A stretch of 64,000 bases of DNA from NCBI GenBank assembly GCA_902596675.1, contig CACJUO010000003.1, positions 1 through 64,000 of the forward strand, read 5' to 3'. This DNA comes from an uncultured Pelagibacteraceae bacterium. GTDB taxonomy: Bacteria; Pseudomonadota; Alphaproteobacteria; Pelagibacterales; Pelagibacteraceae. Made by a program: the position numbers and the translations under genes. The notes beneath the pieces were generated by a model. That model was not told the origin of the DNA, searched no databases, and saw only the letters and a list, made by a program, of their open reading frames with translations. The stretch's first letter is position 1, and each line of letters opens with the position of its first letter. Shown one piece after another: positions 3,614 through 62,560 of the stretch.

Positions 3614-3619
3614 TTTGCG

Positions 3620-17039: not shown

Positions 17040-17041
17040 TT

Positions 17042-17902: not shown

Positions 17903-17903
17903 C

Positions 17904-18629: not shown

Positions 18630-18664
18630 TTATATGATTTTAAAATATAGTTGAAAAATAAATT

Positions 18665-39334: not shown

Positions 39335-39338
39335 AGTA

Positions 39339-39725
39339 TTATTCCTTGCTATTTGTAAAGGTGCAAATTTTATTTCCATCAAGGTCACGAACGTAAGAAT
39401 AATAAACCCCTGATCCCTCTGGTCGTTCTCCTCCAGATCCTTCGCTAGTACCTCCAGCTTTTAGTCCTGTTTCGTGAAATCTATCAACAATAAGTCTTGA
39501 AGATGTTATAAATGATATTTGTGTTCCATTTCCAAAAGTTGCTTCTTTTTTATTAAACGGTTTTGTGATGTAAAACTCTATTTCGTTTGTATCTTTCTTT
39601 CCATATGCAGCATAATCATTTTCTACAGTTTCGTTTCTTGTTAGCCCAATAACTCCCAAAACTTCATCATAAAACTTAATGGCAGCATCTAAATTATTTG
39701 TACCCACCATTACATAACCAATCAT
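39339..39725 (-). CDS. VOC (glyoxalase/bleomycin-resistance/dioxygenase) superfamily protein
   Basis: 128-residue VOC-fold protein with two beta-alpha-beta-beta-beta units. It begins MIGYVMVGTNNLDAAIKFYDEVLGVIGL and ends YYSYVRDLDGNKICTF, the usual second-unit metal-site region. The expected metal-binding His at the N-terminus is replaced by Val/Thr (YVMVGT), so it may not be a metalloenzyme of the standard type. It lies 30 nt after the aldehyde dehydrogenase gene. Function unknown. Confidence 0.78.
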   Translation of the reverse strand: MIGYVMVGTNNLDAAIKFYDEVLGVIGLTRNETVENDYAAYGKKDTNEIEFYITKPFNKKEATFGNGTQISFITSSRLIVDRFHETGLKAGGTSEGSGGERPEGSGVYYSYVRDLDGNKICTFTNSKE

Positions 39726-43813: not shown

Positions 43814-43819
43814 AAAATA

Positions 43820-44989: not shown

Positions 44990-45034
44990 TTAATTGTTGC
45001 AAATAACATAACTAAATGTTTTAAAAACCATCTT

Positions 45035-46120: not shown

Positions 46121-46153
46121 GCTAAATTAATACATTTTCGCCAAAATCACCTG

Positions 46154-46182
46154 TTGACTCTTATATTCTATGTTGCTGTACT
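46154..46182 (+). promoter_or_regulatory. Possible promoter of the PotD-type gene
   Basis: TTGACT and TGTACT are separated by 17 nt in the 99-nt gap between potA and the binding-protein gene. A strong ribosome binding site (GGAGG, 6 nt before ATG) follows. It suggests the binding protein has its own promoter. Confidence 0.45.
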
Positions 46183-46219
46183 TCTTTTTTTATAAAAAAA
46201 ACGTTTAAACGGAGGATAA

Positions 46220-47338: not shown

Positions 47339-47373
47339 TTAAAGTTTTAATCACTTTAATTTTATATTATATT

Positions 47374-47403
47374 AAGGGCGGTCGCACTGACCGCCCTTTT
47401 TTT
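47374..47403 (+). terminator. Terminator/attenuator between the binding-protein and permease genes
   Basis: A perfect 10-bp GC-rich stem (AAGGGCGGTC / GACCGCCCTT) with a 5-nt loop is followed by TTTTTTT, and the last T is immediately before the permease ATG at 47404. The permease can therefore be expressed only by read-through or by a cryptic internal start, and it has no room for a normal ribosome binding site outside the hairpin. Confidence 0.85.
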
Positions 47404-48657
47404 ATGAGCTCAGAAACAGGAAAAATTTTAACAACAGATGGAATTCCCTTAGAGGAAAGTCTAAAACAGGCAGAAAAGAAAAATAAAATTAAAGCTTTTT
47501 TACTAGTTGCACCATTATTATTATTTTTAATTATTACATACATGATTCCAATTGGAGACATGTTCTCTAGAAGCATAGACGATAAGATGGTTACAAATAT
47601 GCTTCCCAAAACTTATAAAGCAATGGAAAATTGGGATGGAAAAGAATTACCGTCAGAGGAAGTTTTTGAGGCATTTTACTTAGACTATAAAATTCTTGTT
47701 AAGAATAAAACAGCAGGAAAATTACAGACACAATTAAATTATGAAAAAAATGGATTTAAGAGTGTTTTAAAAAAACTAGCAAGAAAACAAAAGAAATTCG
47801 AGGAGGGAAACTATAAAGAACAAATAATGAAAGTTCATAAAAGATGGAGAAATGTTGAATATTGGAGAGCAATTAAAAGAAGAGCTCCATCTTATACATA
47901 TTCAAAATACCTTAAAGGTGTAGACATGTACTCCAATGAAGATGGAAAAATTGTTCAAGTTTCTGAGGATAGAAGAATTCATAGAATATTATGGATAAGA
48001 ACAGTGGAGGTAGCTTTTTTTGTTACTTTATTTTGTTTTTTGATGGCTTACCCAATTGCACATTTACTGGCAACTCTACCAATGAAATATAGTAATTTGC
48101 TGATGATCTGCGTTCTTCTTCCTTTCTGGACATCTTTACTTGTAAGAACTGCAAGTTGGATGATTTTGTTACAGCAACAAGGAATTGTGAATGATTTCTT
48201 TGTTTGGACAGGTCTTGTTGCAGACGATAACAGACCTGAGATGATGTACAATAAAACTGGAACATACGTAGCAATGACTCAAATACTTTTACCTTTTATG
48301 GTTTTACCTTTGTATAGTGTCATGAAAACGATCTCTCCAAGTCTTATGAGGGCTGGTAAGTCTTTAGGCGCAACTCCAGCGGTTGCATTTTTTAAAGTTT
48401 ATTTTCCACTTACAATTCCAGGAATAGGTGCAGGTTGCCTATTAGTATTTATTTTAGCAATTGGATATTATATTACGCCAGCACTTGTTGGAGGCGCATC
48501 TGGAACACTTATTAGTAATCAAATAGCATATCATATGAAAAGTACTTTAGATTGGAGTTTTGCATCTGCAATGGGTCTGATGCTTTTGACTGGTGTGTTA
48601 GCAATATATTGGATTTATAATAAACTTGTTGGAGTTGATAACATCAAATTAGGTTAA
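47404..48657 (+). CDS. potB: Spermidine/putrescine-type ABC transporter permease (PotB-like)
   Basis: 417-residue permease, longer than the usual 290-residue PotB. After the first membrane segment (LLVAPLLLFLIITYMIPIGD) there is a charged, probably periplasmic insert of about 140 residues before the second segment. The rest is standard: AYPIAHLLATLP, LLPFWTSLLVRTASWMILLQQ and the EAA loop GKSLGATPAVAFFKVYFPLTIPGI. The start directly abuts the terminator U-run. It is followed 2 nt later by PotC. Confidence 0.85.
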   Translation: MSSETGKILTTDGIPLEESLKQAEKKNKIKAFLLVAPLLLFLIITYMIPIGDMFSRSIDDKMVTNMLPKTYKAMENWDGKELPSEEVFEAFYLDYKILVKNKTAGKLQTQLNYEKNGFKSVLKKLARKQKKFEEGNYKEQIMKVHKRWRNVEYWRAIKRRAPSYTYSKYLKGVDMYSNEDGKIVQVSEDRRIHRILWIRTVEVAFFVTLFCFLMAYPIAHLLATLPMKYSNLLMICVLLPFWTSLLVRTASWMILLQQQGIVNDFFVWTGLVADDNRPEMMYNKTGTYVAMTQILLPFMVLPLYSVMKTISPSLMRAGKSLGATPAVAFFKVYFPLTIPGIGAGCLLVFILAIGYYITPALVGGASGTLISNQIAYHMKSTLDWSFASAMGLMLLTGVLAIYWIYNKLVGVDNIKLG

Positions 48658-48659
48658 TT

Positions 48660-49514
48660 ATGGCGTTACCAAAATATACAGAACCACATTATAGAATTTG
48701 GCATTATTTTTATTTATTAATTTGTGGCTGTGTCTTTTTCTTTTTGATAGCTCCTTTATTTGTAATTTTTCCATTATCTTTCAATGCAGAGGAGTTTTTG
48801 GTTTTTTCTGATGGAATGAAAAGATTAGACCCTGATGCATTCTCATTGAGATGGTATAAGGATATGATTTATGGAACAAAAAATCCATGGGGTTTAGCTG
48901 CAAGAAATAGTTTTATAATTGCAATCTTTGCAACATTTGGATCAATTATTTTAGGTACTCTTGCCGCATTAGGTTTAAGCAGCAGACATATGCCTTACAA
49001 AGGTTTGATAATGGCAATTTTAATTTCACCAATGATAGTTCCATTAATTATTTCTGGAGTAGCGATTTTCTTTTTCATGGCAAAGGTAGGTTTGGCAGCT
49101 ACTCATTTAGGTATTATACTGGCACACATTATTCTTGGAACACCTTTTGTAGTAATAACTGTAACTGCAACACTTTCAGGTTTTGATCATAGTATTACAC
49201 GTGCGGCCTCAAGTCTTGGAAGTAGTCCATATAATACATTTATGAAAATTACTTTACCTTTGATATTACCCGGAGTTATTTCTGGTGGTTTGTTTGCATT
49301 TGTCACCTCATTTGATGAGGTAGTCGTCGTATTATTCTTAGCTGGACTAGATAATACTACAATACCAATTCAAATGTGGACTGGACTTAGAGAGCAATTA
49401 AGTCCGACAATTTTAGCTGTAGCAACTTGTTTAATAATATTGTCAGTATTAATTTTATTAACTGCAGAACTTTTAAGAAGAAGATCTGAAAGATTAAGAG
49501 GAATAAATAGATAG
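48660..49514 (+). CDS. potC: Spermidine/putrescine-type ABC transporter permease (PotC-like)
   Basis: 284-residue permease of normal length with six membrane segments. PLFVIFPLSFN and SLRWYKDMIYG are family features, and the EAA loop is AASSLGSSPYNTFMKITLPLILPGV. GLFAFVTSFDEVVVVLFLAG is also typical. It pairs with PotB to form the channel. Its stop is one base from the convergent thiolase stop, with no terminator hairpin visible between them. Confidence 0.88.
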   Translation: MALPKYTEPHYRIWHYFYLLICGCVFFFLIAPLFVIFPLSFNAEEFLVFSDGMKRLDPDAFSLRWYKDMIYGTKNPWGLAARNSFIIAIFATFGSIILGTLAALGLSSRHMPYKGLIMAILISPMIVPLIISGVAIFFFMAKVGLAATHLGIILAHIILGTPFVVITVTATLSGFDHSITRAASSLGSSPYNTFMKITLPLILPGVISGGLFAFVTSFDEVVVVLFLAGLDNTTIPIQMWTGLREQLSPTILAVATCLIILSVLILLTAELLRRRSERLRGINR

Positions 49515-49515
49515 T

Positions 49516-50640
49516 TTAATTAACAGCTTCAATTACTGTCGCAATTCCCATTCCTAAACCAATACATTGAGTAGATAAGGCATATTTTTTATTTTCTCGT
49601 TTTAATAAATCAGCTGCTTTGCCAGTAATTCTAGCACCTGTTGCACCAAGTGGATGACCAAGAGCAAGAGCTCCACCATCTAAATTAACTTTATCTTTTT
49701 CTATACCTAAGTCTTTAATACACGCTAATGATTGAGAAGCAAAAGCTTCATTCAATTCAACAATATCAATTTGTTCAGCTGACAAGTTAACTCTTTTCAA
49801 AGCTTTTTTTGAAGCTCCAATTGGACCTAATCCCATGTAATCAGGGTCACAGCCCTCAACAGCAGTAGATATTATTCTTCCTAAAATATTTAAATTGTTT
49901 TCTTTTGCATAATTTTCTTCACAAATTAAAGTTGCCGCAGCACCGTCTGTTAAAGGTGACGAAGTTGCAGCTGTAACTGTTCCATTTTCATCAAAAGCAA
50001 GTTTTAATCCATCTAATTTTTCCATTGTACTATTTGGTCTAATGTTTCCATCTGTATCACAATCACCAATTGATACGATTTCATTCTTAAAATTTCCTTT
50101 GGTCTGAGCTTTGTGTGCTTTTTGATGACTTGATATAGCAAACTCCTGTTGTTCATTTCTTGAAATGTTATATTTTTTTGCAACGTTTTCTGCAGTTGTT
50201 CCCATTGAAAAATAAACATGTGGATTATCTGTCTTACTTTCAGGGTAGGGGATTGGTTCAAAACCAGTATTTACTCTTGTCATACTTTCTACGCCGCCAC
50301 AGACAAATACTTTTCCAGCGCCTAATGAAATTTTACCAGCTGCTATATGAATAGCTTCCATTGATGAGCCGCACCATCTATCTACTGTCATGCCTGAGGT
50401 TTTAACATTCATCCCACTGAGAAAAGTAGTTAACTTTCCAATATTAAAACTTTGTTCTCCTGTTTGAAATGCACAACCAACTACAATATCTTCAATATCA
50501 TCTTTTTTAACATTTGATTTTGACACTAAATCTTTAATTACTTCTGCTAAAAGATTAACTGGCTTTGAGTCAATTAAAGCTCCTTTTTTTGCCATAGTAA
50601 AAGGTGATCTTGAAAATCCTGCTATTACTGGTTTAAACAT
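49516..50640 (-). CDS. Acetyl-CoA C-acyltransferase (thiolase)
   Basis: 374-residue thiolase. The acyl-enzyme Cys90 is in TVDRWCGSSMEA, the His in GGALALGHPLGATGAR and the second Cys in STQCIGLGMG. All catalytic residues are present. It is the last gene of the seven-gene operon, 15 nt after the DmdA-family gene. It splits or forms a 3-oxoacyl-CoA, for example acetoacetyl-CoA, which would be useful for acetoacetate left by carnitine cleavage. The assignment to degradation rather than synthesis is inferred. Confidence 0.88.
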   Translation of the reverse strand: MFKPVIAGFSRSPFTMAKKGALIDSKPVNLLAEVIKDLVSKSNVKKDDIEDIVVGCAFQTGEQSFNIGKLTTFLSGMNVKTSGMTVDRWCGSSMEAIHIAAGKISLGAGKVFVCGGVESMTRVNTGFEPIPYPESKTDNPHVYFSMGTTAENVAKKYNISRNEQQEFAISSHQKAHKAQTKGNFKNEIVSIGDCDTDGNIRPNSTMEKLDGLKLAFDENGTVTAATSSPLTDGAAATLICEENYAKENNLNILGRIISTAVEGCDPDYMGLGPIGASKKALKRVNLSAEQIDIVELNEAFASQSLACIKDLGIEKDKVNLDGGALALGHPLGATGARITGKAADLLKRENKKYALSTQCIGLGMGIATVIEAVN

Positions 50641-50655
50641 AATTTAAATATAATA

Positions 50656-51822
50656 TTAATCAGAAAATGGTAAAGAAGTTATAATGCCTTTTCTATTTTT
50701 TCCATTAAAGGTGTTTATAAAAACTTCATTCCCCAAATCCCAAAAATCTCTACTTATCATTGATAAACCTATATTTTTCTTTATTCTTGGCGAATAAATT
50801 CCAGAAGCAATTTGACCAATCTTTTTATTGTTTTCTGAGTATACTGGCAAAGGAACTCCTGTTGGTTTGCAGGGTTCACCATCAAAAATTATTCCTCTCA
50901 TCTGTTGTGTTATTCCCTCAGATTGAATCTTTCTCAAAGCATCTTTTCCAATAAAATCATGATCATTTTCTTTTTTACAATACTTCTCAAGGTTGCATTC
51001 AAGCGGGTTATTTTCCCTGGTAAAATCATTACCATAGGACATAAGTCCTGCCTCAATTCTATCAATTAGGTTTGGACATCCAGGAGATATATTTAATTTT
51101 TGACCATGGTTCCAAATAATATCCCAAAGCTTCTCACCTAATTCAATTTCATTAAAATGAGTTTCAAAGCCTTTGAAATAAATTTCAAAACCATCTTGGT
51201 TACTATATCCAGATCTTGCGATGATTTGTTTTGTACCTAAAAAGTCAAAAACTTTAAAATTGAAAAATTTTAATTTTTTTATGTCTTCACCAAATATCGA
51301 AACCAAAAGGTCTTCAGACTTAGGACCTTGAATAGCCAATGGATAAACATCAGGTTCTATTATTTCAACATTATATCCAGATCCTAATGCTATACCTTTT
51401 GCCCAAAGTAAAATATCTGAGTCTGCTATAGAAATCCAGAACATATCATCATCTAGTTTTAGTAAAACTGGATCATTAATCATTCCTGCAGTCTCATCTA
51501 TTATTGGGATATAAAAACATTTTCCAGTTTCCATTTTTTTTATAGAGCGCGGTGTCATTTTTTGTACAAGTTTTGACGCATCTGGACCTGTAATTTGAAC
51601 TTGTCTTTGACAAGATACATCCCAGACTTGAACTTGCTCTCTTAAATGCCAGTAATCTTCCTCAACTGTATTCTTAAATCCTTTTGGTAACAACATGTGG
51701 TTTACAACAGTAAAATCTGATACACCAAGTTCTTCAACCTTGTTTGTAAATGGCGTACGTCTTATACGTCTTGACATGTTCAATTTAATATTTTTTTGAT
51801 TTATTAAATTTTCACTACTCAT
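50656..51822 (-). CDS. DmdA-family GcvT-fold methyltransferase
   Basis: 388-residue protein of the aminomethyltransferase fold. It resembles SAR11 DMSP demethylase DmdA in SRRIRRTPFTNKVEELGVS, NHMLLPKGF, YWHLREQVQVWDV, ISIADSDILLWAKGIA, AIQGPKSEDLL, IARSGYSNQDGFEIY and SPGCPNLIDRIEAGLMSYGNDFTRENNPLECN. DmdA moves a methyl group from DMSP to tetrahydrofolate. None of dmdB, dmdC or dmdD is next to it, so it may be a relative acting on another methylated sulfur or nitrogen compound. It starts one base after the transthyretin-like gene stop. Confidence 0.72.
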   Translation of the reverse strand: MSSENLINQKNIKLNMSRRIRRTPFTNKVEELGVSDFTVVNHMLLPKGFKNTVEEDYWHLREQVQVWDVSCQRQVQITGPDASKLVQKMTPRSIKKMETGKCFYIPIIDETAGMINDPVLLKLDDDMFWISIADSDILLWAKGIALGSGYNVEIIEPDVYPLAIQGPKSEDLLVSIFGEDIKKLKFFNFKVFDFLGTKQIIARSGYSNQDGFEIYFKGFETHFNEIELGEKLWDIIWNHGQKLNISPGCPNLIDRIEAGLMSYGNDFTRENNPLECNLEKYCKKENDHDFIGKDALRKIQSEGITQQMRGIIFDGEPCKPTGVPLPVYSENNKKIGQIASGIYSPRIKKNIGLSMISRDFWDLGNEVFINTFNGKNRKGIITSLPFSD

Positions 51823-51823
51823 T

Positions 51824-52159
51824 TTATTTTGACCACCATACAGTGTAGCTATTTTTTGAAATTATGATTGGTATATGATATTTTTTATTATTATCTTCCA
51901 TTTTAAATTTAATATTTATTTCGGAAATAATTCTTTTTTCAGAAAAATAACTCCCAATTTTGCAAATCATTTCATATCCACACCTTGTATCATCATCACT
52001 TAGATCAAACTCTTTATGTATTCTACCTCCTTCATCAGATATAGTTTCAAAAAAAATTTCTTTATCTCCATTTTTTTTTATTTGATAAATTATTACATCG
52101 ATATTTCCAGCATGAGATCCATTTGTGGCGTCTAGTAAGTGTGATGAAAATATTGCCAT
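51824..52159 (-). CDS. Transthyretin-like / 5-hydroxyisourate hydrolase family protein
   Basis: Small 111-residue protein with the transthyretin/HIU hydrolase pattern: SSHLLDATNGSHAGNIDVIIYQI at the N-terminus, a central EGGRIHKEFDL-like turn and KKYHIPIIISKNSYTVWWSK at the end. Canonical HIU hydrolases end in YRGS, and here that is replaced by VWWSK, although His of SHLLDA and of YHIP are kept. It may be a divergent hydrolase or a binding protein. No other purine-degradation genes are in the window. It is embedded 1 nt from both neighbouring genes. Confidence 0.65.
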   Translation of the reverse strand: MAIFSSHLLDATNGSHAGNIDVIIYQIKKNGDKEIFFETISDEGGRIHKEFDLSDDDTRCGYEMICKIGSYFSEKRIISEINIKFKMEDNNKKYHIPIIISKNSYTVWWSK

Positions 52160-52160
52160 T

Positions 52161-53903
52161 TTATTCTATTGATGACTTCTCTCTTTTACTTGCAACTGCA
52201 GAGACTATTGGGCTTAGTACTGGTTTTGCTTTGACATTCACACATGCAGGTTTTCCACTTTCCATTGCCCTTTTAAGTGCCGGTGCTAGCTCTTCTCTTT
52301 TATTAACTAATTCTCCATACCCTCCAAAACCCTCAAATATCTTATGAAACGGGATGTCTCGAAAGTCAGTTGCAACGCTTTTCCCACTTTTAAATAACCT
52401 CTCTTGTTGTTGTCCTATTGAGGCCAATCCACCATTGTTATCAATTACAACAGTAATAGGTTTTTTTTCATAAAATACACTTTCAATAGACATACCTCCT
52501 GATAAAAATGCACCATCTCCACTTATAAGGACAACATTTGAGTCTGGATTGTGGTTTTTAGCAGATAAAGCAAACGAAACCCCAACACCTAACATACTAA
52601 ATGTTCCAGGATGTAAGATACCTTTTAATTTTTTACCTTTTGCACCAGCAATATTAATTGCAATCTCTGACCAGAAATGGGTATTTCCTCCATCTATAAC
52701 AAGCCAGTCATTTTCACCCATTGCTTCTTGGACATCTAATGAAAGTTGTAGAGGATGAATTTTTCCACCATTTTTTTTTGATACTTCAGTCTCAATTTCT
52801 AAATCTTTCAAAGATTTATCTACCCATTCTTTTTTCTTTTTTTTATTTTCTTTGAACCAAGTTGTATCTAAATTCCATTTATTATTTTTCTTTAAATTAG
52901 ATAATGTATCTAAAAAAACGCCAGGATCACTTAGTAAACAAAAATCAGCTGCTCTATTAAGTTCGATTTCCTCATGGGAGCCATTAATACATACCAACTT
53001 TGTTGATTTTGGTATAAAAGGTGGATTTCCAAAATTCATTTGATTGTCTAAACGTGCTCCAACAACAAGCACTAAATCAGAATTTTGTAACGCATATTCA
53101 GAGGGGGGATATTGGTGTATATCAGCCAATCCCATATAAGCATTTGCTTCCTCTCCTAATAATTTTTGATGATATGGAACATTAAAAATTGGTATATTTA
53201 AATTATTACCAGCTGCTTCAAGATTTTTTTCTGAATGTGACCACCAAATCCCATGTCCACCTATTATAATTGGTTTTTTAGCATTACAAGCAAGTTCTAA
53301 AACTTCTGATAGAGAATTTGGATCTGGCCAAGCTTTAGTTAAAGGTTTAGCTTTGTGAGAAAATGGCCTCTCCTCTAATCCTGCTTCTTCCACAAAAGAT
53401 GAAAACATAATATCTACTGGTAGACTAAGATGAACAGCGCCAGGATAACCGTTGGTAGCAATATGATATGCCTTGTCGACGAATTCTCTTATTCTAGTTC
53501 CATCAGTAATGCTTGCACTGTATTTTGTTAAAGGCGCTGCTATTGAAACATCATCTATTTCTTTAAAACCACCTGAACCTTGTCTTTTTAGACTGCTAGA
53601 ACCAGTAATATAAATAACAGGACTTCTCTCACCCCAAGCTTCCATCATAGAGGGAACGGCATTAGTAAATCCCTCTGGTCCAACTAAGCATACTGATGGT
53701 TTACGAGTAATTCTTGTATTGCCATCTGCCAAATGACCTGCAATTTGTTCATGAGGTGTGTTTATAACTTCAATTTGACACTCAGCAAATCCTTCAATTG
53801 CTGGATTACAAAAACCTCCTGCAAGAGTAAAAACTTTACTAATTCCCTTATCTTTTAAAGCTCTAGCTAATAACTCTCCACCTCTAATTTTATTCTCACT
53901 CAT
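52161..53903 (-). CDS. Thiamine-diphosphate-dependent enzyme (acetolactate-synthase/hydroxyacyl-lyase-like)
   Basis: 580-residue ThDP enzyme. The N-terminal domain has LAGGFCNPAIEGF and the activating Glu in NTPHEQIAGHLADG; the C-terminal ThDP/Mg motif is ISGDGAFLSGGMSIESV to DNN (VVIDNNGGLA). It differs clearly from the ThDP enzyme at 9232-10932. It abuts the alpha-hydroxyacid oxidase gene and is 1 nt from the transthyretin-like gene. The oxidase may make a 2-oxoacid that this enzyme then decarboxylates or cleaves. Substrate unknown. Confidence 0.8.
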   Translation of the reverse strand: MSENKIRGGELLARALKDKGISKVFTLAGGFCNPAIEGFAECQIEVINTPHEQIAGHLADGNTRITRKPSVCLVGPEGFTNAVPSMMEAWGERSPVIYITGSSSLKRQGSGGFKEIDDVSIAAPLTKYSASITDGTRIREFVDKAYHIATNGYPGAVHLSLPVDIMFSSFVEEAGLEERPFSHKAKPLTKAWPDPNSLSEVLELACNAKKPIIIGGHGIWWSHSEKNLEAAGNNLNIPIFNVPYHQKLLGEEANAYMGLADIHQYPPSEYALQNSDLVLVVGARLDNQMNFGNPPFIPKSTKLVCINGSHEEIELNRAADFCLLSDPGVFLDTLSNLKKNNKWNLDTTWFKENKKKKKEWVDKSLKDLEIETEVSKKNGGKIHPLQLSLDVQEAMGENDWLVIDGGNTHFWSEIAINIAGAKGKKLKGILHPGTFSMLGVGVSFALSAKNHNPDSNVVLISGDGAFLSGGMSIESVFYEKKPITVVIDNNGGLASIGQQQERLFKSGKSVATDFRDIPFHKIFEGFGGYGELVNKREELAPALKRAMESGKPACVNVKAKPVLSPIVSAVASKREKSSIE

Positions 53904-55067
53904 TTAATAATTTACCTTATTAATAGTGTTCTCTATTATTATCTCAGAAGTTACTTCATTAATATCATTTAATCCAACTAACCCTATTGTTGTGCTAATT
54001 TCTTCTTTTATAATCTCAACTATTCTTCTTAATCCTTTTTTTCCATCAGCTCCCATTGCATACATAACGGGTCTTCCAATCATTGTATAATCTGCACCAA
54101 ATGCTAGCGCTCTCACTATATCGCTTCCACTTCTTATCCCACTATCAAAGATTAAAGGAAAATTACTTCCAACTGATTTTCTAATCAATGGAAGCATATT
54201 TATTGCTGCTATCGCACTGTCTAATTGCCTACCTCCATGATTTGAAACTTGAATAGCATCCGCACCGGCTTCTTTTATTTTTATTGCATCATCTGGAGAC
54301 ATTACTCCTTTAACAATAAGTTTACCTTTCCATTTATCTCTTACTCTTTTAAGTGTGTCCCAATCGGTAGAACCCCTACTTTCTTTTCTTTTAAAAATTC
54401 CATCTCCGCTTTTTGATGTAACATAATTCATAGGCTTAGGAATTCCACTCAGCAGCGTTGATATAGACCAAGTCGGATGAGTTGCAAAATCAAAAAATTG
54501 TTTTGGGCCTATCTTAAAAGGATAAGAAAAACCATTTTTATCATCTCTTGTTCTTCTGGACAATACAGGTACATCTACAGTTAAAATTGCTACCTCATAA
54601 CCAGTATGTTTTGCTCTTTCCAAAAGCTCCATCACAAAATTCTCATCTTGGAAAATATACAACTGCATCCACGAATGACCCTCTGAGAGTTCATACATCT
54701 TTTCTAATGTTGTGGTTGATGCCATGGAAACACAAGTTGGAATATTATTTCTTGCACTTTCAGCGGCTAACATAGAATCTGCACCTGGCCATGACAAATT
54801 AGTCATTCCCATAGGAGCAAAACCAAATGGAAAATTAAATTCGTATCCTAAAACCTTTTTTTTAAGTGATCTTTTTTCAACATTTCTTAAAACTTTAGGC
54901 TCTAGTCTTATTTGGTCAAGAGCTATACTGTTGATTTCAGCAAGTTTCTCATCTCCAGATGCACCATCAATAAAGTCAAATACTAATTTGGGAAGACGTT
55001 TACGTGATAGTTCTCTCGCATCTTTTATGCTAAAGATTTTTTGACTTGGTAAAATATTATCACTCAT
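53904..55067 (-). CDS. FMN-dependent alpha-hydroxyacid dehydrogenase (LldD/glycolate-oxidase family)
   Basis: 387-residue TIM-barrel flavoprotein. Key pieces are FGFAPMGMTNLSWPGAD, LYIFQDENFVMELLERA, TVDVPVLSRRTRD, the catalytic His in VSNHGGRQLDSA and FDSGIRSGSDIVRALAFGAD. These enzymes oxidise L-lactate, glycolate, mandelate or long-chain hydroxyacids to 2-oxoacids, passing electrons to quinone or O2. It overlaps PepE by 8 nt and abuts the ThDP gene, so the two likely act in series. No LldP or LldR is present. Confidence 0.87.
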   Translation of the reverse strand: MSDNILPSQKIFSIKDARELSRKRLPKLVFDFIDGASGDEKLAEINSIALDQIRLEPKVLRNVEKRSLKKKVLGYEFNFPFGFAPMGMTNLSWPGADSMLAAESARNNIPTCVSMASTTTLEKMYELSEGHSWMQLYIFQDENFVMELLERAKHTGYEVAILTVDVPVLSRRTRDDKNGFSYPFKIGPKQFFDFATHPTWSISTLLSGIPKPMNYVTSKSGDGIFKRKESRGSTDWDTLKRVRDKWKGKLIVKGVMSPDDAIKIKEAGADAIQVSNHGGRQLDSAIAAINMLPLIRKSVGSNFPLIFDSGIRSGSDIVRALAFGADYTMIGRPVMYAMGADGKKGLRRIVEIIKEEISTTIGLVGLNDINEVTSEIIIENTINKVNY

Positions 55068-55752
55068 TGTTAATTTTAATGTATTCTTTTAAGTTAAATT
55101 GTTTATTTTGATTAACAAAATAAGCATTATGACCTTTTCTAGAAGAATAAACCTCTGTTGGTTTTCCGTCAATAAAAAGTACCGCAACACCATCATCAAC
55201 AGCAATACCATCTGGTAAAGTTTTGTTTTTAATATTTTCTCTATATTTTTCCGCTCTTTTTGAGTCCGAATAATGTGGTGTAAAACTTCCGTGTAATAAT
55301 CCAATGCCATTCATAGATTTAAATCCAGGTCCATCTGAGTCAGTCAGAAAGCAATCGAACCAACACGCGGCACCAGCGCTTACACCTGATAGAATTATAC
55401 CAGAATTATAAATTTCTTTAAAAAGCCCAATCAAATTATTTTCTTTCCAATATTTGATCATGAATTTTGTATTTCCACCACCAACGTAAACCACATCAAG
55501 ATTTGAAAGCCAATTTTCAAAACCTTTGACGCTAGAGATAAGATTAAAGTGAGATACATTTAAACCTGAAACTTGAAACCTTTTGTAAAAGAGCTTAGTT
55601 TTGCTTGAGTCATCGTTACTAGCGGTCGGTAAAAATCCTAATGAGCAATTTTTTTTGTTGATACGGTCTAAAATGAATTGTTCCTGATCATCATCTTGAT
55701 TATGAGTAAATCCTCCACCTCCGATAGTAATTATTTTTTTTTTGATCTTCAC
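55060..55752 (-). CDS. Peptidase S51 (PepE/cyanophycinase family)
   Basis: 230-residue Ser peptidase. The nucleophile elbow is GVSAGAACWF near residue 120, preceded by YVGGGNTKFMI, which is the usual S51 glycine-rich stretch. The C-terminal GIAVDDGVAVLFIDGKPTEVY is typical. Family members cleave Asp-X dipeptides (PepE) or cyanophycin-like isoaspartyl bonds. With the dipeptide-type ABC importer divergently upstream, it may process imported small peptides or amino-acid conjugates. Overlap with the oxidase gene shows coupling. Confidence 0.82.
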   Translation of the reverse strand: MKIKKKIITIGGGGFTHNQDDDQEQFILDRINKKNCSLGFLPTASNDDSSKTKLFYKRFQVSGLNVSHFNLISSVKGFENWLSNLDVVYVGGGNTKFMIKYWKENNLIGLFKEIYNSGIILSGVSAGAACWFDCFLTDSDGPGFKSMNGIGLLHGSFTPHYSDSKRAEKYRENIKNKTLPDGIAVDDGVAVLFIDGKPTEVYSSRKGHNAYFVNQNKQFNLKEYIKINNE

Positions 55753-55777
55753 TAGTTATATTTTTAACAATTTAAGC

Positions 55778-56995
55778 TTAAACACCAACCCAAGGTCTAG
55801 GCCCATTAGGAATTTTTCTGTCAATACCTCTAACTATCTCTCCTAGCTCATCATACATTGGCAATTTACAGATTTGACCTTTATGTAATTTTCCATCTGT
55901 ACATTTGACATCAACAATATCACCTGGCCCATTTTCGTTATTGTTAAGGTGAACTATACCTACACCACAAACTTGATAAGGTGACCATGTACTAGAAGTT
56001 ATTTTGCCAATCTCTTTTTCATTTAATTTAATACTCTCTCCTTTGATTGCAGTTCCAGACATAACTCGAATTCCCCAAGTCTTACATTTTTTCTCTGATG
56101 ACATAAGTGCATCTTTTCCAATAAAATCCTCTTTATCAAAATTTATAAATTTTCCAAGGCCAACTGAAAAAGGATTGGTATTTTTTGAAAAATCTTGTCC
56201 AGCAGATAAAAGTCCAGCTTCAATTCTTCTACATCTAAATCCTGGTGTAGCCACCAAAATCATACCTAATTTTTTTCCTTGCTCAAGAATATAATCTCCA
56301 ATTTTCTCTATTTCATTTTCTGGCCTAAAGTAAATTTCCCAACCAAGTTCATTAGTAAAACCACTTCTGCTTACTATTACTCTTTGATCTAAAATTTGTA
56401 ACTCTTTCCAATCAAAATATTTCCAATCTTTCTCTGAAAAACCATTACTTAAATTTTCAAGTAGTTTCATGGACAATGGGCCTTGAACTTGACTTACCCA
56501 AACATTTGGATCATTAATTTCCACATTTAAATTTTTAGAATGTGCTTTATACCAAGAAAATAGGTCACCATCAGCTTGCGTAAACCAATATTTATCTTTA
56601 TTTATTCTTAAAAGTATACCATCCGTAATCATCCCACCATCATGATAGCAAGCAAACTGATACGAACATCTTCCCACAGCGATTTTTGAAATATCTCTTG
56701 GAAATATTTTTTGTAAAAATTTAAGTGAATCTGGTCCTGATATTTCAAATGGATGTTCTCCTGTATGCCTAAAAATAATTTCTCTCCTCGCCTTCCAATA
56801 CATTTCTTCAGGACTAACATTAGATAATTTTTCAAGTGTTAATCTTCCTGCATAATTTGAATATTCCGGATCATATGGCAATTCTTGATAAGTTAAGGGG
56901 TGAACCTGAATTGATCTTGCAAGTTCAATTGAATTGGAATTTTCAAGGCTAACTGGCTTTACAGTAAACCTATATTTATTGATTAAATTGTTCAT
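55778..56995 (-). CDS. GcvT-fold aminomethyltransferase-family protein
   Basis: 405-residue protein of the glycine cleavage T/dimethylglycine oxidase C-terminal fold. Features are FRHTGEHPFEISGPDSLKFLQKIFPRDI, GMITDGILLRI, VQGPLSMKLL, SRSGFTNELGWEIYF and CRRIEAGLLSAGQDF. It has an N-terminal extension of about 50 residues. Such proteins transfer methyl or methylene groups to tetrahydrofolate. It is different from the DmdA-family gene at the other end of the operon, so the operon has two such enzymes. It is the first gene and is divergent from the dpp operon. Confidence 0.82.
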   Translation of the reverse strand: MNNLINKYRFTVKPVSLENSNSIELARSIQVHPLTYQELPYDPEYSNYAGRLTLEKLSNVSPEEMYWKARREIIFRHTGEHPFEISGPDSLKFLQKIFPRDISKIAVGRCSYQFACYHDGGMITDGILLRINKDKYWFTQADGDLFSWYKAHSKNLNVEINDPNVWVSQVQGPLSMKLLENLSNGFSEKDWKYFDWKELQILDQRVIVSRSGFTNELGWEIYFRPENEIEKIGDYILEQGKKLGMILVATPGFRCRRIEAGLLSAGQDFSKNTNPFSVGLGKFINFDKEDFIGKDALMSSEKKCKTWGIRVMSGTAIKGESIKLNEKEIGKITSSTWSPYQVCGVGIVHLNNNENGPGDIVDVKCTDGKLHKGQICKLPMYDELGEIVRGIDRKIPNGPRPWVGV

Positions 56996-57051
56996 TATTA
57001 TTTTTGTAGATAATCAGAATACACCAATAAAATAAATAAAAAATGTCCATT

Positions 57052-57080
57052 TTGACTGTTGCTATATAAGTATCTAATTG
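57052..57080 (+). promoter_or_regulatory. Possible dppA promoter
   Basis: TTGACT is followed 17 nt later by TAATTG, a weak -10, in the 116-nt divergent gap. TTGACT also precedes the PotD-type gene. The start has GAGAGG about 7 nt upstream of the ATG. Confidence 0.3.
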
Positions 57081-57111
57081 TTACCTTTTGTTTTTTTAAA
57101 GAGAGGAAATT

Positions 57112-58599
57112 ATGAAAAACATTTTAAAATTGATATCAATTTCATTGGTATCACTATTTGTAACATTTTCATTTGCCAATGCATCAAGTGGAGTTTTCAA
57201 GTTATCTCATGATCTTGGTTTTGGAAAAGATACAAATTTAGATGCAATTACTAAAGGAAGACTATTTCAAGTAGTAATAATGACTCAAAATCGTCTTGTT
57301 AGAAAAGATCTAAAAGGAGTTACTTCTCCAGAGTTAGCTACTGACTGGTCAGGTAACGCAGATGCAACAGAATGGACTTTTAATTTAAGAAAAGGTGTTA
57401 AATTCCACGATGGATCTGATTTTGATGCAGAGGATGTAAAATATTCTTTAATGAGAGTTAAAGATCCTGAAATTGGTTCGCCTGCTAAGAAGAGCATGAG
57501 TGCAGTAACAGATATTGAAGTTGTTGACTCACACACAGTAAAAATAAAGTTGAACACATCTTTCGCAGATTTTCCACTTTTACTAACTGATTATAGATTA
57601 AGAATGATACCAAATGGATCAGGTGATACTATTGGGAAAACAGGTATTGGAACTGGGCCGTTTATGGTTGATAAATTTGATGCAGAGGGAACAACAATCC
57701 TTAAAGCTAACCCAAATTATTGGGAAGGAGCACCAAAACTTGCCGAGGTACATGTAATAGCTATACCAGATGGTCAAGCTAGAATACAAGCCTTAATGAC
57801 AGGTCAAATAGATATGAATAGATATGTTCCATTCAATCAGAAAAAAATATTTGATGGAAATTCAAAATTTAACGTTTCAGTTATCCCTACAGGAAACTGG
57901 AGAGGTATGGTAATGAGAACTGATGTAGCCCCATTTGATGACCCTAGAGTAAGAAAGGCTGTCAGAATAGCTGTAGATAGACAAGAATTAGTTGATCTAG
58001 TTATGGCTGGAGCAGCAACTGTATCTTGCGATACTCCTGTTGCACCATCAGATCAATATAGAATGAAAAAGAATTGTCCACCACAACCAGCCACAGCAAA
58101 AAAATTACTTGCAGAGGCAGGTTACCCAGATGGTATTGATTTCACAATTCATGTATCTACAAAAGAACCAACTTGGCCAATTATTGCTGAAGTTTTACAA
58201 CAACAATTTGCTAAAGCTAATATCAGAGCAGATATTCAAATGACACCATCAAAAAGTTATTGGAATGAAACTTGGATGAAAAAGCCTGTAGCAATGACAC
58301 GTTGGAACGAAAGACCGGCAGATAGTATTTTGCATGAAGCTTATCATAGCGAAGCAAAATGGAACGAGTCATTCTATAAAAGTGCTTCTTTTGATAAGAA
58401 TTTAGCTGACGCAAGAGGTGAGTTAAAATTTAGTAAAAGAAAAGCAGCATATATCAATGCTCAGAAAACATTATGGGAAGAATCTGGAACAATGATTCCT
58501 TACCATGTGTCACGACTTGTTGTTACATCTTCTAGAGTGAAAAATCTTGACGAGGTTGAGTATTTTTCAATTAGATGGCACACAGTAAGTGTTCAGTAA
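57112..58599 (+). CDS. dppA: Dipeptide/oligopeptide-type ABC transporter substrate-binding protein (DppA/SBP_bac_5)
   Basis: 495-residue periplasmic binding protein. Signal peptide MKNILKLISISLVSLFVTFSFANA, cleavage after ANA; there is no lipobox Cys. SBP family 5 features include LVRKDLKGVTSPELATDWSGN, WTFNLRKGVKFHDGSDFDAEDVKYS and a C-terminal RLVVTSSRVKNL. These proteins bind peptides or other bulky ligands such as opines and glutathione. It opens the dpp operon opposite the PepE/GcvT operon, so the two may share a substrate. The ligand is unknown. Confidence 0.88.
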   Translation: MKNILKLISISLVSLFVTFSFANASSGVFKLSHDLGFGKDTNLDAITKGRLFQVVIMTQNRLVRKDLKGVTSPELATDWSGNADATEWTFNLRKGVKFHDGSDFDAEDVKYSLMRVKDPEIGSPAKKSMSAVTDIEVVDSHTVKIKLNTSFADFPLLLTDYRLRMIPNGSGDTIGKTGIGTGPFMVDKFDAEGTTILKANPNYWEGAPKLAEVHVIAIPDGQARIQALMTGQIDMNRYVPFNQKKIFDGNSKFNVSVIPTGNWRGMVMRTDVAPFDDPRVRKAVRIAVDRQELVDLVMAGAATVSCDTPVAPSDQYRMKKNCPPQPATAKKLLAEAGYPDGIDFTIHVSTKEPTWPIIAEVLQQQFAKANIRADIQMTPSKSYWNETWMKKPVAMTRWNERPADSILHEAYHSEAKWNESFYKSASFDKNLADARGELKFSKRKAAYINAQKTLWEESGTMIPYHVSRLVVTSSRVKNLDEVEYFSIRWHTVSVQ

Positions 58600-58607
58600 T
58601 AACTTTT

Positions 58608-58639
58608 GTTTTACAGGCCTTTAAGTAGGCCTGTAAAAC
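58608..58639. terminator. Perfect 13-bp stem-loop after dppA
   Basis: GTTTTACAGGCCT and AGGCCTGTAAAAC form a perfect 13-bp stem with a 6-nt loop, starting 9 nt after the dppA stop. No U-run follows on the plus strand. It probably protects the 3' end of a processed dppA mRNA or causes partial termination, raising the ratio of binding protein to permease. Confidence 0.6.
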
Positions 58640-58681
58640 CACTTTCATTTCAAAATAAATAATTTAAAATTTAATATTGTT

Positions 58682-59638
58682 ATGCTTTTTTTAATTATAA
58701 AAAGAATTTTATTAGGTTTTATTACCTTATTTATTGTATCTATAATTACATTTGTTGGTACAGAAATTTTACCAGGGGATGCTTGTACAACCTATCTAGA
58801 AAGACAGGCTTTTGGCGAGCAATTAGAAGCTTGCTACAGGAGGCTCGGTTTAAATGTTCCAGCATATGAAAGATATGTATCATGGGCATTAAATGCTATT
58901 CAGGGAGACTTTGGTTATTCTTTAAGTGGAGAGATGCCAATCAAAGAGGTTTTAGGACCTAGAATTAAAAATTCACTAGTATTGGCATCAGCTGCAATTT
59001 TTATAGGTATTCCTATAGCTTTAATTTTAGGAATTATTACTGCTCTGTGGAGAGACAAGTTACCTGATGTAGCAATATCTACAGTAACAATATTTGCAAT
59101 GACTATTCCAGAATTTATTAGTGCTACTTTATTAATTTTAATTATTGCAATCTGGCTAGAGTGGTTGCCTGGTATTGTAATAGTTCCAACTGATGTATCT
59201 TTCCTAGAGTTGTTGCCAAATATAATTTTACCAGTTGTTGCTATAGCGATGATCATGACAGCTCACATGGCGCGAATGGTAAGATCTAGTGTCATTCAAG
59301 TAATGGCAAGTGAATATGTTCAAATGGCAATTCTTAAAGGAGTTCCTTATTGGAAAATGGTTTTCAAACATGTTTTACCAAATGCATTATTACCTGCTAT
59401 TAATGTCGTTGCCTTGACTATTGCATGGCTTTTAGGTGGAGTTGTAGTAACCGAAGTTGTATTTAATTACCCTGGTCTTGGAAGATTAGTTATTGAGTCA
59501 ATTTCAAACAGAGACTTACCAACAGTTCAAGCATTAGCAATAATTCTTGCATCTATCTATGTAAGTATAAATTTATTGGCAGATCTATTAACACTAATGC
59601 TTAACCCTAGATTAAAAACATTACAAATAAGAAAATAA
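58682..59638 (+). CDS. dppB: Dipeptide-type ABC transporter permease DppB
   Basis: 318-residue permease with six membrane segments. The N-terminus LFLIIKRILLGFITLFIVSIITFVGTEILPGD, the RLGLNVPAYERYVSWALNAIQGDFGYSL stretch and the EAA loop MAILKGVPYWKMVFKHVLPNALLPAI are typical of DppB. It begins 43 nt after the dppA hairpin and is one base from dppC. With DppC it forms the channel. Confidence 0.9.
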   Translation: MLFLIIKRILLGFITLFIVSIITFVGTEILPGDACTTYLERQAFGEQLEACYRRLGLNVPAYERYVSWALNAIQGDFGYSLSGEMPIKEVLGPRIKNSLVLASAAIFIGIPIALILGIITALWRDKLPDVAISTVTIFAMTIPEFISATLLILIIAIWLEWLPGIVIVPTDVSFLELLPNIILPVVAIAMIMTAHMARMVRSSVIQVMASEYVQMAILKGVPYWKMVFKHVLPNALLPAINVVALTIAWLLGGVVVTEVVFNYPGLGRLVIESISNRDLPTVQALAIILASIYVSINLLADLLTLMLNPRLKTLQIRK

Positions 59639-59639
59639 T

Positions 59640-60533
59640 ATGAAATTGGATAATATTTATAAAGAAGAGAAGAAAAGCACTTATGCAAAATTATCTGAAA
59701 TTATAATTACAATGGCTTCAAAACCATCTGGACTTATCGGTCTTACTATTTTAGTTTTTCATATAATTCTTGCATTCATTAGCCCTTATATTGCGCCTCA
59801 TGATTTTAAAGCTATAGACCCAACCTTAATGCTTCAGGCGCCATCAGCTGAGTATTGGTTTGGAACAGACGATCTTGGAAGAGATGTTTTTACAAGAACA
59901 ATTTTAGGGGGGAGAACTGCTCTTACAATAACTTTCTTTGGATCTTTAATAGCACTACTGTGGGGTGGTCTTTTAGGAATATTTTGTGGATTGGTTGGAG
60001 GAAAAATTGACGATGTAGTTATGAGAATTGTAGATGCGTTCTTATCTATTCCATGGATATTAGCAATGTTGTTGATTGTGTCTTTGTTAGGTACATCTAC
60101 TGAAGTATTGATACCTGCTTTAGGTTTTTTTTATGGCAAAGGAATTGTACGAGTTGCGAGAGCAGCAACTCATGATGTTATCGCAAAAGACTTTATAGTA
60201 TCTGCAAGAGCGAGAGGACATAGTAATTTTGCAATTATTTGGAATGAAATAATTCCTAATGTAAGAGATGCAATCTTAGTTGAAGGTGCTATGCGATGGT
60301 CGTGGATGTTGCTTGGTTTTAGTTCTTTATCTTTTTTGGGTTTCGGGGTAAGTCCTCCAACACCAGATTGGGGATTAATGATATCAAATGCCAGAGGCTT
60401 GATGTCTTTTGCTTATTGGGCAGTAATAGCGCCAATAGTCGGATTAAGTAGTTTAATTATTGGTATCAATTTAACGGCTGATGCTTTTGCTAAGGCTTTA
60501 GGCATAGATAGATCAACTAAAGCTCCTGTTTAG
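59640..60533 (+). CDS. dppC: Dipeptide-type ABC transporter permease DppC
   Basis: 297-residue permease with six membrane segments. GTDDLGRDVFTRTILGGRTALTI is the DppC signature and SARARGHSNFAIIWNEIIPNVRDAI the EAA loop. FLGFGVSPPTPDWGLMISNARG is also characteristic. It lies between dppB (1 nt) and the fused ATPase gene (2 nt). All sequence features are standard. Confidence 0.9.
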   Translation: MKLDNIYKEEKKSTYAKLSEIIITMASKPSGLIGLTILVFHIILAFISPYIAPHDFKAIDPTLMLQAPSAEYWFGTDDLGRDVFTRTILGGRTALTITFFGSLIALLWGGLLGIFCGLVGGKIDDVVMRIVDAFLSIPWILAMLLIVSLLGTSTEVLIPALGFFYGKGIVRVARAATHDVIAKDFIVSARARGHSNFAIIWNEIIPNVRDAILVEGAMRWSWMLLGFSSLSFLGFGVSPPTPDWGLMISNARGLMSFAYWAVIAPIVGLSSLIIGINLTADAFAKALGIDRSTKAPV

Positions 60534-60535
60534 TT

Positions 60536-62560
60536 ATGACTGAAATGATACAAAAAGTAAAAAACTTATCTATTGGATTTAGAAGTAAAAAGGGCGAAGA
60601 AATATTAATTTTAAAAAATATAACTACAAATATTAAAAAAGGTGAGACAGTTGGAATAGTAGGGGAGTCTGGTTCTGGAAAAAGTACATTGGCATTAGCA
60701 ATGATGGGATATGTTAAGCATGGACTTTATACTATCGGAGGAGAATGTCAGTTTAATTCTTCAAATTTGCTTAAAATGAAAAGTAAAGATTTAGAAAAAA
60801 TCAGAGGCAGAAAGATAGCAATGATTCCACAAAACGCAGGTCAAGCTTTGACTCCAAACTTAAAGATAGGTTATCAAATTGATGAAGCTTTACAATTACA
60901 CTCAGATTTAGAGGAAAAAGAAAGGGAAAAAAAAATTTCTGAATTATTAAATAAAGTTCGACTTCCTTCACCAGAGACGATTGCGCTAAGATATCCTCAC
61001 GAACTCTCTGGAGGGCAACAACAGAGAGTCGCTGTTGCCATGGCATTAGCTGGCACACCAGATTTACTTCTTTTAGACGAACCTACAACAGGATTGGATG
61101 TAACAACACAAGCTCATGTTTTAGAACTTCTAAATTTTATCGCAAAAGATACTGGAACTTCAATGGTTTATGTAAGTCATGATTTAGGAGCAATTGCTCA
61201 AGTGAGTGATAGAATTATTGTTATGTATTCAGGAGAAATTGTTCTTGAAGGTCCATCAAGAGATATCCTTAAAAAACCAATTCATCCTTATACTCATGGA
61301 TTACTTAAATCTATCCCAAAATTGTCTTTAGCCGGTCTTCCAGAGTCAATGCCTGGTAGTCAACCTCAACCAGGCACAATTCAAGGTGGCTGTAGTTTTT
61401 TTGATAGATGCAACTTCTCAGATGAAAATTGTAAAAGTAATTCTCCTAAATTAGAATTTTTAAAGGATTTAAATACTAGTGTTAGATGTTTTAATTATGA
61501 AAAACTTGTGAACGAAAATCAGGTAAGCCAAACTATAAATAAAATTAAGAATAAATCACAAGATAAAGAAATATTAAATTTATCAGAAGTATCTATTAGT
61601 TATGCTAAACAAAAACTTTTAGACCAAGTTTTCAATAGAATTTCTGACGATAACCCAACAGTTAAAGATATAAATATTAATATCAAAAAGGGAGAGACTA
61701 TAGCTCTAGTAGGAGAATCAGGAAGCGGAAAGTCAACAATCCTAAAATCAATTGCTGGACTACTAAGAACCAAAGATGGACTAATAAGGTTTGATGAAAA
61801 TAGAAATTTATCATCTGATTTGAGAGAGAGAGATCCAAATGATTTAAGAATCATTCAATTAATATTTCAAAATCCAGATGAGTCTTTAAATCCAAACCAC
61901 ACAGTAGAAGAAATTATTGCACAACCTTTAAAATTATATTTTGGATTAAAAGGTGAAGAATTAAAAAAAAATATTATAGATCTTCTTCAAAAAGTAAGAC
62001 TTGGAGAATTTTATACGTCTAGATATCCAAGACAACTATCTGGTGGTGAAAAACAAAGAGTAGCGGTTGCAAGAGCTTTTGCTGCAAAACCAGATATTAT
62101 TTTATGTGATGAGGTAACATCTGCTTTAGATGTTTCTGTGCAAGCCGCAGTATTAAATTTATTACAACAACTAAAAGAAGATTTTGGAACTACATATATC
62201 TTTGTATCACATGATTTAGCGGTTGTAAGAGCTATAAGTGATAGAGTGGCTGTACTTTATCAAGGTAGACTTTGTGAAGTAGGACCTTCAAATGATGTCT
62301 ATAAGTTTCCATCTCACCCTTATACAGAAGTTTTGTTGGGCGCTGTCTTAGAGCCAGATCCAGATATAAAACCAAAATTAGTTGCTGAGGATATTGTTGA
62401 AGAAAGACCCCCTGAAAAAGGCTGCAGTTTTCAAGGAAGATGCTCAAGAATTGTTGGAGATATTTGCAAAAAAGAAATACCACCATGGCAATTAACTGAA
62501 AGCGGTAATGCTATCAGATGTCATATTCCTATTAAAGAATTACAAAAAGAACAATTTTAA
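60536..62560 (+). CDS. Fused dipeptide-type ABC ATPase (DppD-DppF)
   Basis: 674-residue protein with two complete ABC ATPase domains of the DppD and DppF types. Walker A GESGSGKS occurs at 43-50 and again near residue 392. The signatures are LSGGQQQRVAVAMAL and LSGGEKQRVAVARAF. Each half ends with the oligopeptide-transporter C-terminal Cys motif (GCSFFDRCNFSDENC and GCSFQGRCSRIVGDIC), which in this family can bind an iron-sulfur cluster. The first half is followed by a short linker rich in Asn and Lys. A single chain can supply both ATPases for DppBC. Fusions of this kind are known but less common than separate genes. Confidence 0.9.
   Translation: MTEMIQKVKNLSIGFRSKKGEEILILKNITTNIKKGETVGIVGESGSGKSTLALAMMGYVKHGLYTIGGECQFNSSNLLKMKSKDLEKIRGRKIAMIPQNAGQALTPNLKIGYQIDEALQLHSDLEEKEREKKISELLNKVRLPSPETIALRYPHELSGGQQQRVAVAMALAGTPDLLLLDEPTTGLDVTTQAHVLELLNFIAKDTGTSMVYVSHDLGAIAQVSDRIIVMYSGEIVLEGPSRDILKKPIHPYTHGLLKSIPKLSLAGLPESMPGSQPQPGTIQGGCSFFDRCNFSDENCKSNSPKLEFLKDLNTSVRCFNYEKLVNENQVSQTINKIKNKSQDKEILNLSEVSISYAKQKLLDQVFNRISDDNPTVKDININIKKGETIALVGESGSGKSTILKSIAGLLRTKDGLIRFDENRNLSSDLRERDPNDLRIIQLIFQNPDESLNPNHTVEEIIAQPLKLYFGLKGEELKKNIIDLLQKVRLGEFYTSRYPRQLSGGEKQRVAVARAFAAKPDIILCDEVTSALDVSVQAAVLNLLQQLKEDFGTTYIFVSHDLAVVRAISDRVAVLYQGRLCEVGPSNDVYKFPSHPYTEVLLGAVLEPDPDIKPKLVAEDIVEERPPEKGCSFQGRCSRIVGDICKKEIPPWQLTESGNAIRCHIPIKELQKEQF

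Follow-up and report, generated by a model that had tools for sequence, protein, structure and literature searches.

A conserved gene quartet with its own clade of DmdA-family proteins in marine bacteria, and its possible role in the catabolism of a methylated 2-hydroxy acid

What could be the substrate of an operon that joins two methyl-transfer proteins to a peptidase, a 2-hydroxy-acid dehydrogenase, a thiamine diphosphate (ThDP) enzyme, a transthyretin (TTR)-like protein and a thiolase? The window analysed here is a stretch of 64,000 nucleotides (positions 1 to 64,000 of contig CACJUO010000003.1, GenBank assembly GCA_902596675.1) from an uncultured Pelagibacteraceae bacterium, whose genome (G000) is represented by 1.08 Mb in 47 contigs and is 74% complete. 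An original prediction, made from the sequence of the window, had described seven packed genes opposite a dipeptide-type importer. The seven open reading frames (ORFs) were confirmed at 49516-56995, all on the minus strand, and the Pfam and NCBIfam identities agree with the family calls for all of them. The distances between consecutive genes, in the order G1 to G7, are 25, -8, 0, 1, 1 and 15 bp, and the operon is divergent from an Opp/Dpp-type importer located 116 bp away (57112-62560; Table 1). We found that four of the seven genes form a widespread core: those coding for the flavin mononucleotide (FMN)-dependent 2-hydroxy-acid dehydrogenase (G3), the ThDP enzyme (G4), the TTR-like protein (G5) and the DmdA-family protein (G6). 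Full-text searches for this gene combination in an open-licence library returned no paper describing it, as the prediction had also stated for named pathways. As far as checked, no description exists of this combination or of the separate DmdA clade and the genes that accompany it; each part belongs to a known family.

A four-gene core shared by distant bacteria

A search with the TTR-like protein in 147 genomes of the family gave ten close orthologues (58-100% identity), that of the window included, and about eighteen genomes that had only distant canonical-type 5-hydroxyisourate (HIU) hydrolases. The nine genomes with a close orthologue besides the window carried the seven genes in the same order with the importer divergent at one end, one of them with an extra opposite-strand ORF between two of the seven. 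This conserved grouping exceeds chance. To look beyond the family, an alignment of the ThDP enzyme was scanned against 84,980 species, which gave 80 loci, and five further ones were added (L161-L163, L165 and L167). The resulting set of 85 includes a few near-duplicates and, being chosen by the ThDP gene, does not test the presence of that gene independently. The TTR gene was adjacent to the ThDP gene in 82 of the 85 loci, TTR and DmdA genes were both beside it in 78, and the full quartet was found on one strand in 69, of which 35 were outside the SAR11-type group. Searches started from the TTR-like protein and from the DmdA family, both independent of the choice by ThDP gene, agreed on the grouping of the core.

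The carriers of the core include SAR116, Rhodobacterales/Planktomarina, Pelagibius, Hyphomicrobiales, several gammaproteobacteria and one "Deltaproteobacteria" metagenome-assembled genome (MAG), and a Chloroflexi MAG had the FMN-ThDP pair only. Culturable carriers of the full quartet include Pelagibius sp. Alg239-R121 (L081) and Rhodobacteraceae IMCC1909 (L107). The module was rare in samples of whole genomes: it occurred in 6 of the 385 taken from the class and in 2 of the 399 from the phylum, and both counts include the genome to which the window belongs. No relatives were found in the viral contigs searched. The claim that the operon is one conserved unit therefore survived the gene-neighbourhood test, since the genes are kept together; however, they are not equally essential, and the S51 peptidase, the importer, the second GcvT-fold protein (G1) and the thiolase are lineage-specific additions to the four-gene core. 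The picture is that of a conserved and patchily distributed, putatively catabolic module in abundant ocean bacteria, for which no pathway is described in the literature searched.

The DmdA-family protein and its core partners

The G6 protein scores 526 bits against the NCBIfam model for dimethylsulfoniopropionate (DMSP) demethylase (PRK12486), above the cut-off of 410, and its homologues from SAR116 and a gammaproteobacterium reach 561 and 521 bits. Its AlphaFold model (predicted local distance difference test score 91.7) has as best Foldseek match 3tfh, with a TM score of 0.92. In a tree of 80 sequences all the core-associated DmdA proteins, together with two proteins found through the NCBIfam model, formed one clade (support 100/98) whose sister group contains the Pelagibacter ubique DmdA (3TFH), so that G6 falls outside the canonical clade. 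Both model-found members have Val at position 32 and ThDP and TTR genes next door, while none of the 28 other DmdA-family loci examined has either gene. Actually, Val replaces Tyr32 (3TFH numbering; Val40 in G6) in every clade member that covers the position, and Tyr32 is kept in all 28 sequences compared from outside the clade. This residue is thus a sequence signature that separates the core demethylase from canonical DmdA and, if it lines the pocket, the change to Val would be expected to enlarge it. G6 also has Tyr where the P. ubique reference has Trp197, but Trp197 was discarded as a marker for DMSP because Tyr197 also occurs in high-scoring DmdA from outside the clade.

G6 is the second DmdA-family copy of this genome. 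The other one (C1:7863-8972) groups with 3TFH in the tree, and the region that contains it (G000:C1:4418-8972) has acyl-CoA dehydrogenase-like and acyl-CoA ligase genes followed by dmdA, which is the layout expected of dmdC-dmdB-dmdA; these DmdC-like and DmdB-like neighbours were named by family matches, by eye and by position, and not by an equivalog model. With this separate dmdA elsewhere in the genome, and with no dmdB, dmdC or dmdD adjacent in the operon, a plain DMSP cluster was rejected, as the original prediction had anticipated. The presence of DmdC was also tried as a discriminating partner and dropped, homologues being equally found in core-bearing and core-less genomes of the same genus. 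Judging from sequence, the database label "DMSP demethylation" is probably wrong for G6-type genes. A curated model would then be giving G6 a function that it may not have, and potentials for DMSP demethylation estimated with it would be biased.

The other three core enzymes retain their catalytic residues. The closest proteins to G3 in the PDB are lactate oxidase and mandelate dehydrogenase; its active-site motif HGGRQ (H277, R280) and a DFA-HP-W segment, which resembles that of LldD/mandelate dehydrogenase, are invariant in 69 sequences. G4 has its best PDB match in 8vzc (199 bits), and its nearest solved relatives are oxalyl-CoA decarboxylase and 2-hydroxyacyl-CoA lyases, although it stays well below the equivalog cut-offs for 2-hydroxyacyl-CoA lyase and oxalyl-CoA decarboxylase (238 bits against 600, and 199 against 739). 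The catalytic Glu52 and the GDGAF...DNNGG motif of this enzyme are invariant or nearly so in 85 sequences, and the C-terminal tail KREKSSIE is nearly invariant across them (about 0.8-0.99 per position). G5 keeps the HIU hydrolase residues H7, R46 and H95 when compared with the canonical HIU hydrolases of the family, but in all the members of its group the C-terminal YRGS is replaced by W-x-S (WWSK in the window protein) and its score of 66 is under the equivalog cut-off of 87. Furthermore, the canonical HIU hydrolases of the family are found in another gene context. With the tail gone and the context different, a uric-acid pathway was rejected, in agreement with the earlier statement that this is not a uricase cluster.

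Accessory genes and neighbourhood of the core

Table 1 Features of the operon and the divergent importer in the window
Feature	Position	Strand	Match or size
G1, stand-alone GcvT-fold protein (405 amino acids), accessory	55778..56995	-	Pfam GCV_T 138 bits
G2, S51 peptidase (PepE/cyanophycinase type)	55060..55752	-	Pfam Peptidase_S51 129 bits
G3 (core), FMN-dependent L-2-hydroxy-acid dehydrogenase, LldD/mandelate-dehydrogenase type	53904..55067	-	Pfam FMN_dh 396 bits
G4 (core), ThDP enzyme, 2-hydroxyacyl-CoA lyase/oxalyl-CoA decarboxylase/acetolactate-synthase superfamily	52161..53903	-	Pfam TPP_enzyme_N/M/C
G5 (core), transthyretin/HIUase-family protein (TTR-like)	51824..52159	-	Pfam Transthyretin 67 bits
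G6 (core), DmdA-family tetrahydrofolate methyltransferase, separate clade	50656..51822	-	GCV_T; NCBIfam PRK12486 526 bits
G7, acetyl-CoA C-acyltransferase-type thiolase, accessory	49516..50640	-	TIGR01930 418 bits, cut-off 240
Divergent intergenic/promoter region between operon and importer	56996..57111	none	116 bp
T1, family-5 solute-binding protein of the importer (SBP5)	57112..58599	+	Pfam SBP_bac_5
T2, importer permease B	58682..59638	+	Pfam BPD_transp_1
T3, importer permease C	59640..60533	+	Pfam BPD_transp_1 + OppC_N
T4, importer ATPase, fused double	60536..62560	+	Pfam ABC_tran x2, oligo_HPY x2

The second GcvT-fold protein, G1, scores only 186 bits on the DmdA model (cut-off 410). Its best PDB match is 9q59, a trimethylamine N-oxide (TMAO) demethylase, and it is nearest to the tetrahydrofolate domains of TMAO demethylase, GcvT and DmdA. 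It is mainly limited to SAR11-type and related loci, and in a related family it is preceded by an S-methyltransferase-family gene. The slot next to the S51 gene, occupied by G1 in the window, holds a non-homologous MttB-family gene in SAR116, and a gene of this family adjoins the core in six loci, SAR116 and Rhodobacterales among them. The G7 thiolase is present in nearly all SAR11-type loci and mostly absent elsewhere. The nearest solved structure to G2 is 7c9b, an alpha-aspartyl dipeptidase (E 4e-6), and its Ser125 and His160 are invariant in 29 sequences. Outside the SAR11-type group S51 genes were found in ten loci, nine of them also with an SBP5 importer gene, so that S51 and the importer make up a linked yet optional module; at other loci TRAP or TTT transporters, named by eye from the sequence, take its place. 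Ten other loci have a T1 homologue with more than 48% identity next to their core. The relatives of T1 (GsiB as best NCBIfam match, 179 of 594, and 1uqw, YliB, as best PDB match) proved uninformative about the ligand, the score being far below the cut-off.

Many of the neighbours seen at single loci were identified by reading the sequences, without database search. Elsewhere the neighbours of the core repeatedly include further enzymes of 2-hydroxy or 2-oxo acids (Ldh_2, D-2-hydroxy-acid dehydrogenase and ketopantoate-reductase family), a LysR regulator and, in scattered places, sulfur-methyl or nitrogen-methyl genes. In two distant taxa (L094, 6256-8532; L106, about 1400-4100) the ThDP gene has as neighbours genes for an SBP56-family protein, a CoA-binding protein and a ferredoxin, and a Cys/Met pyridoxal phosphate (PLP) enzyme is beside the core in one locus. 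Four loci (L102, L114, L115 and L124) are devoid of the FMN enzyme and have an NAD-epimerase-like gene, then ThDP-TTR-DmdA, then beta-keto-acid cleavage enzyme (BKACE)-like and carnitine-dehydrogenase-like genes; FolD-like genes are upstream in all four, and sarcosine-oxidase-type and formate-tetrahydrofolate-ligase-like genes in L114, L115 and L124. In gammaproteobacterial L109, L118 and L129 a class I methyltransferase and an isochorismatase-family hydrolase follow DmdA, with a dimethylformamidase-like protein in L109.

In the window a second cluster (43073-49514, plus strand) is convergent with the operon, 1 bp away from it. It codes for an Amdase-family protein, an M24 peptidase and an importer of PotABCD type, and it follows the thiolase in most of the related genomes whose contig extends far enough. 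Three other regions were read by eye. One (16572-20496) has thioesterase, citrate-lyase-beta-like, aldolase-like, beta-keto-acid cleavage enzyme and carnitine-dehydrogenase-like genes adjoining TauD- and BetA-type genes, and looks like carnitine/betaine catabolism. At 8648-12098 another ThDP enzyme adjoins a small conserved protein and a luciferase-type monooxygenase, and two homocysteine S-methyltransferase-family genes (35797-36786 and 38420-39388) lie on either side of MsrA-like and beta-lactamase-fold genes. In addition, nine GCV_T-domain matches (L001-L008) were found in the 1.08 Mb of this partial genome, some in long proteins (800-1000 amino acids), and its repertoire for tetrahydrofolate-linked demethylation is unusually large.

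Proposed pathway, rival readings and known systems

We propose, as a reading with about an even chance of being right, that the operon serves the catabolism of an imported, methylated 2-hydroxy carboxylic acid, one methyl group of which would be passed to tetrahydrofolate. The compound would be brought in by the SBP5-type importer and, in this lineage, the acid would be released by the S51 hydrolase. G6, helped here by G1, would take a methyl from an onium-type donor and pass it on to tetrahydrofolate; the FMN dehydrogenase would convert the 2-hydroxy acid into the 2-oxo acid and the ThDP enzyme would cleave beside the oxo group. The transthyretin-fold hydrolase may act on the substrate or on the product of the ThDP enzyme, and G7 and central metabolism would complete the breakdown. 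Roles and order of the steps are inferred from sequence and structure comparisons. Oxidation of a 2-hydroxy acid, ThDP-dependent cleavage, hydrolysis by a TTR fold and methyl transfer are suggested because the parts retain their catalytic residues, and the link to tetrahydrofolate because the fold of G6 equals that of DmdA. The import, hydrolysis and demethylation foreseen by the original prediction fared unevenly: tetrahydrofolate-linked methyl transfer is very likely, while the peptide-like conjugate draws on optional genes only.

That the donor might be a sulfonium compound is hinted at by the membership of G6 in the DMSP demethylase family, the SBP56-family genes at two loci and the Cys/Met PLP enzyme at one. 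The most concrete candidate, itself unlikely, is 4-dimethylsulfonio-2-hydroxybutyrate (DMSHB). This compound has been reported as a marine metabolite, and the enzymes that decarboxylate it are for the most part unknown; one known DMSHB decarboxylase domain likewise has a ureide-catabolism fold (PMC11306096). Demethylation of this compound would give methylthiohydroxybutyrate and oxidation methylthiooxobutyrate, followed by decarboxylation and the DmdB/DmdC-like route of the genome; of the four core steps, three would be accounted for by DMSHB, with the product entering the DMSP route. More broadly and rather tentatively, the quartet might be an undescribed route for a sulfonium 2-hydroxy acid (DMSHB or a conjugate, for example) in SAR11-type bacteria, SAR116 and others, with its own clade of demethylases, which databases and surveys of dmdA currently include under DMSP demethylase. 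The gene set makes the consumers of DMSHB and related methylated hydroxy acids a testable question.

Several observations weigh against the proposal of a methylated 2-hydroxy acid or against its sulfonium version. The DMSHB scheme leaves the TTR-like protein, the S51 peptidase and the peptide-type importer without a role. ThDP-TTR-DmdA occurs with no adjacent FMN enzyme in nine loci, and G4 is nearest to ThDP enzymes that cleave CoA thioesters, although no CoA ligase is part of the core. A link to methanethiol oxidase had to be rejected, the SBP56-family neighbour in L094 scoring 148 against a MtoX cut-off of 650. Finally, MttB-family, sarcosine-oxidase, N-methylglutamate-pathway and dimethylformamidase-like neighbours at some loci point to N-methyl and not S-methyl compounds. 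Because DMSHB leaves these three components unexplained and several neighbours favour N-methyl compounds, we give the general reading even chances and DMSHB clearly less.

Among the alternatives, an N-methylated substrate (betaine-type, or an N-methyl amide or ureide) would have one methyl taken by G1 or MttB and another by G6, amide bonds hydrolysed by the TTR-like and S51 proteins and the remaining 2-hydroxy acid processed by G3 and G4. The MttB-family genes just mentioned, SoxA-type genes in three related loci, N-methylglutamate-type genes seen by eye upstream in L122 and the DMFA2-like and isochorismatase-family genes downstream in gammaproteobacteria would all suit it, but such neighbours are optional and no corrinoid protein adjoins MttB among the genes inspected. 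DmdA-type redox-neutral transfer to tetrahydrofolate is known for sulfonium donors and is not known for amines, which also counts against this alternative, and we consider it rather doubtful. It is unlikely that G6 is merely a second DMSP demethylase in an alternative DMSP route, with the other genes devoted to downstream or unrelated products. The scores on the DMSP demethylase model (521-561 bits), the fold shared with 3TFH and the presence of Tyr197 in other high-scoring DmdA speak for it; against it stand the dmdA locus with DmdB-like and DmdC-like neighbours elsewhere in the genome, the separate clade with Tyr32 lost throughout, and a 2-hydroxy-acid dehydrogenase and a TTR-like hydrolase that fit no known DMSP route. 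Least probable of all, and in our opinion improbable, is a purine- or ureide-like ring-opening pathway in which the TTR-like protein catalyses the key step and N-methylated heterocycles are the methyl donors: ThDP-TTR is indeed the tightest pair and the His/Arg/His of HIU hydrolase is retained, but every G5 member has lost the YRGS tail, canonical HIU hydrolases sit in a different context and the core has no urate oxidase, xanthine dehydrogenase or OHCU decarboxylase.

The module assumed for a methylated 2-hydroxy acid resembles several known systems in part. The uric-acid HIU hydrolase (PucM-type) shares with G5 the fold family and the catalytic residues His, Arg and His, and differs in the tail, in the equivalog score and in belonging to a purine cluster. 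Mandelate- and sulfolactate-type degradation also combines a 2-hydroxy-acid dehydrogenase with a subsequent ThDP enzyme, a decarboxylase in that case, but the ThDP enzyme of the operon is of another subfamily and is accompanied by a tetrahydrofolate methyltransferase and a TTR-like hydrolase. The 2-hydroxyacyl-CoA lyase/oxalyl-CoA decarboxylase family holds the closest solved relatives of G4, whose subfamily has a nearly invariant tail of its own and belongs to a core with neither CoA ligase nor CoA-transferase. Another parallel is with the DMSP demethylation pathway (dmdA with dmdB, dmdC and dmdD), since G6 is a DmdA homologue (45% to 3TFH) for which tetrahydrofolate is the expected acceptor; unlike DmdA, it belongs to a separate clade marked by the change of Tyr32 to Val, and its fixed partners are, instead of DmdB, DmdC and DmdD, the ThDP, TTR-like and FMN enzymes.

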